In this document: piece by piece, positions 16,856 to 18,715 of the stretch
Numbering within the stretch: position 1 is the first letter of the stretch
Layout of the letters: every line of letters starts with the position of its first letter
Assembly: GCA_025059775.1 (NCBI GenBank)
Contig: JANXCW010000010.1
Coordinates: 1 to 64,000, forward strand
Origin: Armatimonadota bacterium
GTDB lineage: Bacteria > Sysuimicrobiota > Sysuimicrobiia > Sysuimicrobiales > Sysuimicrobiaceae
DNA: 64,000 bases
Reading direction: 5' to 3'
Notes under the pieces: generated by a model
Databases searched by the model: none
The model's input: the letters and a program-made list of their open reading frames with translations, nothing else
What the model was told of the DNA's origin: nothing
Made by a program: the position numbers and the translations under genes

Positions 16856-16885
16856 ATTATAGGGACCCTGCTCCTGGGCCGTCAA
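16856..16885 (-). promoter_or_regulatory. Promoter of secE-nusG-rplKA
   Basis: TTGACG (16885-16880), an 18-bp spacer and a perfect TATAAT (16861-16856) lie 95 bp before secE. The TAA stop codon of the upstream gene is contained in the TATAAT, so the promoter is partly inside that gene. Confidence 0.8.
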
Positions 16886-17462
16886 ACGGGGCGAGGGTTG
16901 CCAGCAGCCCTGCAATCCGGCGGGCCGCCTGGAGGAGCACCGCCTCTACCAGGGCCGCGGTTCCCCTCCCGTCCGCGCGGGTGGCGGCGAAGGTTTCCTC
17001 CAGTAGGATGCGTTGGGTTACGGCTTCCACAACCCGCAGCTGCAGGGCCGCATGGGCCACGGAGACCGCAGGCACCCGGGAGGCTGGGGCCGGGAGGGAG
17101 AGGCCGTCCAGGTCGAGGTGGGTCCACCGACCGGTGACGATCCAACTCGCCCCTGCTGTCCGTGCCACCACCGCGGCTCTCCCCGTCCAGACGTAAAGGT
17201 CCTCCGGGCGCAATCCGAGCTCTCGGGCGACGCTGCGAACCCGATCCACGGGCAGGACCCGGAGCCCTGGGATGCGGTGTCCCAGCAGGGAGGCGAGTTG
17301 GGCGCTCGGGGATTCCAGATCCACAAGCAGGTGGGTGGCCGCGGTCCCCACGGTGGAGAACTCCGCCACCGCGAGCACGGGCGGCACGTGCCCCGCGGTG
17401 CTCAGGGCCGTCAGGAACGCGAAAAGCAACGCCACACTCTCAGCATACGCCCAGCCGGTCAC
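16857..17462 (-). CDS. Exported CsgG/LpoB-like hypothetical protein
   Basis: This 201-residue protein opens with a signal-peptide-like hydrophobic stretch (about 8-31, VALLFAFLTALSTAG). Its pattern resembles CsgG/FlgO/LpoB-type periplasmic domains: LPVDRVRSVARELGL, then a segment ending ASWIVTGRWTHLD, a VEAVTQRILLEE strand and a final helix. Family membership is inferred from this layout, not proven. It starts at GTG 17462. It lies directly upstream of secE, where rpmG often sits, and its stop codon forms part of the secE -10 box. Confidence 0.6.
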   Translation of the reverse strand: MTGWAYAESVALLFAFLTALSTAGHVPPVLAVAEFSTVGTAATHLLVDLESPSAQLASLLGHRIPGLRVLPVDRVRSVARELGLRPEDLYVWTGRAAVVARTAGASWIVTGRWTHLDLDGLSLPAPASRVPAVSVAHAALQLRVVEAVTQRILLEETFAATRADGRGTAALVEAVLLQAARRIAGLLATLAPFDGPGAGSL

Positions 17463-17513: not shown

Positions 17514-17541
17514 TTGACACCGCGGGGGGATCGGGTACCAT
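17514..17541 (+). promoter_or_regulatory. Promoter for the structured leader RNA
   Basis: TTGACA (17514-17519), a 16-bp spacer and TACCAT (17536-17541). It is divergent from the CsgG-like gene, and transcription should start near 17548, just before the structured RNA. Confidence 0.6.
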
Positions 17542-17549
17542 AAGGAACG

Positions 17550-17656
17550 GAAGGCGGTGATGTCCGGTCAGGGAAGGCCGGACAGAACCGCTAAATTTGT
17601 TTGGATTCAAGAGGCCGGCGCCTCCCGGCAGGGGTCGGTAGCCGGCCTGGTTTTTT
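17550..17656 (+). ncRNA. Structured leader RNA with intrinsic terminator (unassigned)
   Basis: The RNA begins with a two-tier hairpin. GCGGT (554-558 of the 17-kb block) pairs with ACCGC (587-591), a symmetric GA/GA internal loop follows, and TGTCCGG (17561-17567) pairs with CCGGACA (17578-17584) under an AGGGAA-type loop. A 20-nt AT-rich linker leads to a terminator: AGGCCGGC (17612-17619) with GCCGGCCT (17641-17648), then GG and six T (17651-17656). A coding frame starts 15 nt later. The promoter-aptamer-like fold-terminator-gene order looks like a riboswitch or attenuator, or a short sRNA gene. I could not match it to a known class. Confidence 0.55.
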
Positions 17657-17670
17657 GTCGGGGGTGCGCG

Positions 17671-18024
17671 ATGATCCGTGCCCATGAACGAGTCCTGGTG
17701 GAGGCTCGTCGGCAGGCTACGGCGGAACGGGAGGTGTACCGGCAGCTGCTGGAGCGGGAACGGCGGGGACTGATCCGGTATCGGTCGGCCCCGCGGGTGG
17801 CCCCGCCGGAGGAGCACCGGGCGAGCCTCCAGGAGGCGAAGCGGCTGGCCCGGGAGAGTCTCGACGCGCACCGTCGGGCCCTGGAGGAGAACCCCTGGAT
17901 CTTGCAGCTGGTGGCCCTCTACGAGCAGCTGCAGGCCCTGCGGCGTGCAAAGGGCCGGCGGAAGGAGAAGACCGAGCAACCTGTGGCACAGGAATTGCTT
18001 CCCTCACCGCAGACCGTGGGATAG
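17671..18024 (+). CDS. Small charged alpha-helical protein, hypothetical
   Basis: This 117-residue, Arg/Glu-rich protein starts MIRAHERVLVEARRQA. It is predicted to be almost wholly helical, with heptad-like spacing (about 5-30 and 50-100) and a disordered polar tail. I recognise no family. ATG 17671 is chosen because GGGGGTG precedes it and because the upstream bases fold into the terminator. Expression would require read-through of that terminator, so the leader probably controls it. Two hairpins follow the stop. Confidence 0.6.
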   Translation: MIRAHERVLVEARRQATAEREVYRQLLERERRGLIRYRSAPRVAPPEEHRASLQEAKRLARESLDAHRRALEENPWILQLVALYEQLQALRRAKGRRKEKTEQPVAQELLPSPQTVG

Positions 18025-18039
18025 AATAGCTGCTGGAGA

Positions 18040-18117
18040 ACTCCCCGGCCCCCCCTGCCGGGGAGTCACGCCCCACCCCCCAGCGACGGCCCGGCGCCCG
18101 CCGGGCCGTCGTGTTTT
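18040..18117 (+). terminator. Tandem hairpins ending the small helical protein gene
   Basis: The first stem is 18040-18049 with 18057-18066 (10 bp). The second is 18085-18094 with 18101-18110 (10 bp, 6-nt loop), followed by GTGTTTT. The second is a reasonable intrinsic terminator. It abuts the stop codon of the convergent sigma factor gene. Confidence 0.75.
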
Positions 18118-18715
18118 AGCAGGAACCCCGGAAGGCCTGGAGCCTGGGGTGACGGCGTAGCCGGCTGAGGAGGGTACGCCTGACGTTGTAGACCTCCTCC
18201 ACGGATGCGAACAGGTCGCCCCTGCGGCGCACCAGCTCCCGCGGGGGGATCCCGTGGACGAAGGACTCGTAGAGCACGACCCGCTCCCGCTCGTCCGCGA
18301 CCACGGAGCGGAGGGTCTCCCACAGCTCCTGGATCCCCATCCGCGCCACGGCCTCCGCCTCGGGATCCGCGGCCGCGTTGCCCTTCGGATCCTCCACCAG
18401 AAAGGCTTGCTCTCGTCTTCGGATGGCGTCCACCACCGCACTGTGCGTGCACATCTGCAGGTAGCGCAGCAAACTGGGGAGGTCCGGGAACCGCCGGAAC
18501 TTCTCCTCGTCCACGGCCAGGAACATCTTCTCGAAGGCCCGATTCACCAGCCACTCCACCGGCTCCCCCGCGTGTGAAAACGCGCTGTGCCGGCGTACCC
18601 AGCTGGCCACTAGGGCCTGGTACCGGGCGTAGAGGGTCCGCCACGCGTCCTCGTCCCGGAACACGAGGGCGCGCCGAAAGAGCTGGTATGCCTCAAGCTC
18701 CTTCTGGTCGCCCAT
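18116..18715 (-). CDS. ECF-type RNA polymerase sigma factor
   Basis: This 199-residue protein has sigma region 2 (DEDAWRTLYARYQALV through YLQMCTHSAVVDAIRRRE) and region 4 (LRSVVADERERVVLYESFV, then an HTH ending in RRTLLSRLRR) and lacks regions 1 and 3, as in ECF sigma factors. No anti-sigma gene is adjacent. ATG 18715 lacks a clear Shine-Dalgarno site. Longer forms are open upstream but overlap the divergent epimerase promoter area. Target genes are unknown. Confidence 0.75.
   Translation of the reverse strand: MGDQKELEAYQLFRRALVFRDEDAWRTLYARYQALVASWVRRHSAFSHAGEPVEWLVNRAFEKMFLAVDEEKFRRFPDLPSLLRYLQMCTHSAVVDAIRRREQAFLVEDPKGNAAADPEAEAVARMGIQELWETLRSVVADERERVVLYESFVHGIPPRELVRRRGDLFASVEEVYNVRRTLLSRLRRHPRLQAFRGSC

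Follow-up and report, generated by a model that had tools for sequence, protein, structure and literature searches.

A conserved structured leader RNA with a candidate CsrA-binding hairpin precedes a small basic protein gene in Sysuimicrobiaceae

What regulates the gene for a 117-aa basic helical protein that is preceded by a long structured leader in a member of the Sysuimicrobiaceae? The locus is part of a stretch of 64,000 nucleotides, which was analysed as a whole and will be referred to as the window, and an earlier note had read its geometry as that of a riboswitch or attenuator. The order of elements described there, namely promoter, hairpin, linker, terminator-like hairpin with six T, ribosome site and 117-aa gene, was confirmed by sequence and folding, with all elements on the forward strand. 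The sigma-70-type promoter (17514-17541) consists of TTGACA (17514-17519) and TACCAT (17536-17541) separated by a spacer of 16 nt and agrees with the consensus at 10 of 12 positions; TTGA(C/T) and TA...AT are aligned in six orthologous leaders, and a promoter scan yielded two promoter-like sites in the region compared to 0.2 expected. It is followed by hairpin P1 (17553-17592), identified by folding and by covariation in relatives, which is composed of an outer stem (GGCGGU/ACCGCU), a GA/GA internal loop and a 9-bp inner stem (UGUCCGGUC/GGCCGGACA). The AU-rich linker (17593-17611) contains a U-rich (G)UUU element that appears as invariant T columns in the family alignment; this element (17593-17605) is located directly 3′ of P1, reads (G)UUUG in most cases and is conserved family-wide. 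Hairpin P2 (17612-17648) with the stem GGCCGGC/GCCGGCC is separated by GG from a T6 tract (17651-17656), and the Shine-Dalgarno-like (SD) sequence GGGGG (17660-17664), which is replaced by GGAGG in the sister genus, precedes the ATG start codon at 17671.

Folding of 17541-17662 gave −60.1 kcal/mol compared to a mean of −43.0 kcal/mol for shuffled sequences (z = −4.94), and none of 200 shuffles was as low; for P1 with its flanks (17541-17600) the z value was −6.48. Searching the leader with the Rfam covariance models yielded no family at gathering score and, at relaxed thresholds, a single miRNA-like chance match (E = 2.9); the earlier note had not matched the RNA to a known ligand class either. 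The reading frame of the leader is open in the window genome (G000) and in G003-G006. A protein-coding N-terminal extension was rejected, as in G001 a stop codon interrupts the frame 8 codons upstream of the ATG and the leader frame of G002 is shifted. Because of these two observations we regard the leader as non-coding, as is required for the RNA originally proposed.

Seven genomes of the family were compared: G000 and its sister species G001 representing the window genus, G002, G004, G005 and G006 representing the sister genus, and G003; six of the family genomes carry csrA. G008, belonging to another family, was included for comparison. Leader and 117-aa gene are conserved together in all seven family genomes, in a single copy per genome. 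Standard pairs fill 96% of the pair cells in the four leaders of the sister genus, and sliding the partner abolishes this agreement. Four pairs are changed on both sides in these sequences, which was equalled in 4 of 500 shuffles, and compensatory changes are present in both P1 and P2; covariation in both stems together with a recurring downstream gene, the check suggested at the outset, was thus found. Searched over 42 kb, a covariance model built from the four sister-genus leaders detected both window-genus leaders (E = 2.5e-5 and 2e-3); its match to the G003 leader was marginal (E = 0.06). Between the window leader and that of G001, identity amounts to 81% with mostly pairing-preserving changes in the stems. 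The GA/GA internal loop is confined to the window genus; to that extent it was correctly described, but it is missing outside the genus. Genome-wide searches with the leader model yielded nothing beyond the leaders of the orthologues and antisense hits at that locus; their strict filters missed the window genus, which was found when the loci alone were searched. A recurring RNA class was rejected, the matches being restricted to the orthologous locus. Overall, the comparative data support the view that the leader is a real, conserved, structured, non-coding regulatory RNA.

CsrA is a translation regulator known for flagellin control. The hairpins bound by CsrA/RsmE carry a hexaloop of the sequence ANGGAN (PMC7652899). 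P1 of the window, with C[AGGGAA]G, has exactly such a hexaloop and a C-G closing pair, and the predicted CsrA-binding hairpin comprises positions 17564-17581 with the loop at 17570-17575. With 9 bp it is the longest ANGGA-loop hairpin on both strands of the 64-kb window, the runner-up having 7 bp. ANGGA is present in the P1 loop of all six leaders from csrA-bearing family genomes (AGGGA, AAGGA, AGGGA, ACGGA, ACGGA and ACGGA) and was retained while the surrounding stems changed. The apical loop had been described as GGGAA-type, which holds for the window; the portion conserved in the relatives is A-N-G-G-A. In a profile search neither csrA nor flagellin was found in G003 (100% complete) or G008 (89% complete). 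The leader of G003 has kept a P1-like stem with a loop devoid of GGA, and in G008 the hairpin is kept with a CGGA loop preceded by U, hence not ANGGA. Loss of flagella coincides with loss of csrA in both G003, a family member, and G008. In G009, where csrA is present and the 117-aa gene has a distant homologue, the leader of that homologue showed no P1-like site. As the effective sample comprises two or three lineages, we consider the co-occurrence of the ANGGA loop with csrA to be suggestive only.

In the window genome, csrA (C8:14052-14204; PF02599, 79.3 bits compared to a cut-off of 27) is located in a flagellar cluster, flanked by fliW and fliC, and its product retains the N-terminal LVLTRK and VHREE motifs. 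Flagellar genes have been reported for Sysuimicrobiaceae (PMC11604079) and, together with the nearest relatives, make this family of the phylum CSP1-3/Sysuimicrobiota the probable affiliation of the window genome. In each of the six csrA-bearing genomes the fliC leader contains two hairpins with ANGGAN loops, the second of which covers the SD sequence; in G000 (C8:13798-13839) these are GGGC[ACGGAG]GCCC and, over the SD sequence, GUUC[AAGGAG]GAAC, positioned 24 nt apart. The paired hairpins conserved in the six flagellated family genomes represent a hag-type CsrA-FliW-flagellin circuit in the phylum.

A CsrA-site model was built from 10 flagellin-leader hairpins of the clade, none of them derived from the leader under study. 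On both strands of the 64-kb window this model ranked P1 first with 19.3 bits, followed by a match of 15.6 bits. In the eight orthologous loci (26.7 kb) the top four matches were P1 of G000, G005, G004 and G002. P1 of G001, G006, G003 and G008 was not reported in these loci, despite the fact that the G001 and G006 hairpins fit ANGGA. Genome-wide (2.35 Mb), P1 ranked sixth after two training sites and three matches overlapping long ORFs and, judged by reading frames, was the only clear leader match besides the training sites among 13 reported. Some hairpins in coding regions scored equal to P1, and the score alone is insufficient to pick P1 in 2.35 Mb; its leader position and conservation do single it out.

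P2 is conserved in the family and kept also where CsrA is absent. The strong terminator assigned to it earlier stands in part: the T6 tract follows P2 in G000, G001 and G008, but G002, G004, G005 and G006 have no T-run, and the terminator scan by itself was at chance level (one found compared to 1.2 expected). A T-run directly after the hairpin and kept in the orthologues, as in an intrinsic-terminator attenuator, was not found. In G008 the P2-like hairpin is directly followed by TTTTTT, although some 90 nt separate it from the start codon; the T-run may therefore be an ancestral feature that has disappeared from the sister genus. Looking for a second CsrA site overlapping the SD sequence, as in hag, we found none in the window genus: a classical SD-covering site is absent there because the SD sequence GGGGG contains no GGA and the P2 loop reads AGGGG (GGGA in G001). 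In this genus some 88 nt separate P1 from the SD sequence downstream of it. In the sister genus, ANGGA occurs in the loops of both P1 and P2; the two copies are some 59 nt apart, and the one in P2 precedes the SD sequence by some 26 nt. This SD sequence reads UUGGAGG and has no A at the position two bases upstream of GGA. Sites 10-63 nt apart are within the reach of a CsrA dimer (PMC7652899). Pairing of the P2 5′ arm with the SD sequence, as in an anti-SD switch, was predicted for certain G000, G006 and G003 fragments, but a conserved switch was rejected as the pairing did not hold across relatives; the SD sequence is half open in several of them.

The downstream gene (17671-18024) encodes a protein with a pI of 10.7 belonging to a conserved protein family, with orthologues in all seven family genomes examined, a clear one in G008 and weak matches elsewhere in the phylum. 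No Pfam or NCBIfam family scored above cut-off, and the predicted three-helix model (pLDDT 80, pTM 0.33) gave no significant PDB match. A terminator-like hairpin downstream (18084-18111; 12 bp, −28 kcal/mol) is followed by TGTTTT, the whole element covering 18084-18117, and the 117-aa gene appears to be the sole gene of its transcript. A sigma-like gene and an epimerase gene are conserved beside it. The former, a convergent and diverged sigma-70-like gene (18116-18712, reverse strand) with a weak Sigma70_r2 match below cut-off, keeps its place next to the 117-aa gene in the family as well as in G008. On the other side, a divergent 201-aa ORF (16857-17462, reverse strand) has no Pfam match above cut-off and shows 75% identity in G001.

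We consider it likely that the leader represents the 5′ UTR of a single-gene transcript, in which P1 is a candidate CsrA-binding site tuning the level of the 117-aa protein. CsrA would bind P1 at its ANGGA loop and, in the sister genus, could also contact ANGGA in the P2 loop near the ribosome site; the output of the 117-aa protein would thereby be coordinated with the FliW-CsrA-flagellin circuit of these flagellated bacteria. As to the effect, we slightly prefer repression to activation or mRNA stabilisation, and in the sister genus it is favoured because the spacing of the P1 and P2 ANGGA motifs is within the bridging range of a CsrA dimer. In the window genus, P2 and T6 may additionally end transcription early, so that termination, or a 5′-end effect on mRNA stability as in flhDC, would be possible. 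That CsrA at P1 actually switches intrinsic termination at P2/T6 in the window genus, with the terminator replaced in the sister genus by a second CsrA site in P2 that acts on translation, is unlikely in our view.

A metabolite riboswitch of a new class, with P1 as aptamer and P2 plus T6 as expression platform, would account for the succession of promoter, hairpin, linker, terminator and ribosome-binding site in the window genus, the conserved loop sequence and the missing Rfam match. We nevertheless regard it as very unlikely, since P1 has no multi-helix core, its conserved part being five or six bases in the loop of a simple hairpin, the GA/GA loop does not extend beyond the window genus, conservation does not include the expression platform, each genome has a single copy of the element in front of a single gene, and its CsrA-type ANGGA loop tracks csrA. 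Of the two functions originally envisaged, the riboswitch is thus disfavoured and, since the sister genus has not conserved the T-run, an attenuator is possible only in the window genus. The 117-aa protein might also bind its own leader, for which its strongly basic character, the co-travelling of leader and gene across the whole family and the persistence of a P1-like stem in G003 without csrA would argue. Highly basic helical proteins are common, however, and autoregulation predicts neither the ANGGA motif with its likeness to the flagellin sites nor its absence from csrA-lacking genomes, making this reading unlikely as well. Finally, both hairpins could be constitutive structures only, P1 stabilising the 5′ end and P2 serving as a boundary or partial terminator, with ANGGA being coincidental. 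The GC-rich genome with its stable stems, the retention of P2 without CsrA, the moderately open SD sequence in several relatives and the small number of lineages are in line with such a structure. It appears unlikely given that ANGGA is found in six of six leaders despite changed surrounding stems and that the independently trained model placed P1 at the first rank.

What is new here is most likely a CsrA target in an uncultured phylum, CsrA-mediated regulation through leaders being of a kind already known. An orphan leader and its gene in a poorly studied phylum thereby gain a likely regulator, which suggests that CsrA controls more than flagellin there. Co-regulation with the FliW-CsrA-flagellin circuit would be the first functional context for this conserved protein family, and the case would illustrate that a riboswitch-like geometry can belong to a protein-binding leader.

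Like P1, the hairpins of Bacillus subtilis hag and of the fliC leaders of the clade are located in 5′ leaders and have short, G+C-rich stems capped by an ANGGAN loop, and the window genome shares the fliW-csrA-fliC set of the hag-type setting. Unlike hag-type leaders, in which a second site lies over the SD sequence, the leader of the window genus combines an SD sequence without GGA with a distant P1 and has the P2/T6 element inserted between the two. The sequestering sRNAs of the CsrB/RsmZ type likewise carry ANGGA in hairpin loops, and P2/T6 in the window genus could release a short RNA bearing P1; CsrB and RsmZ, however, possess many sites, whereas the leader described here has one to two and is conserved together with its downstream gene. 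In Escherichia coli, several CsrA targets are bound far from the SD sequence, resulting in stabilisation of flhDC, activation of ymdA and moaA, and Rho-dependent termination in pgaA. Compared to these targets, P2 of the window is intrinsic-terminator-like with no sign of Rho, and the gene is unrelated. Nevertheless, flhDC, ymdA, moaA and pgaA all have their CsrA site or sites upstream of the SD sequence in a structured leader, which is the arrangement proposed here for P1.
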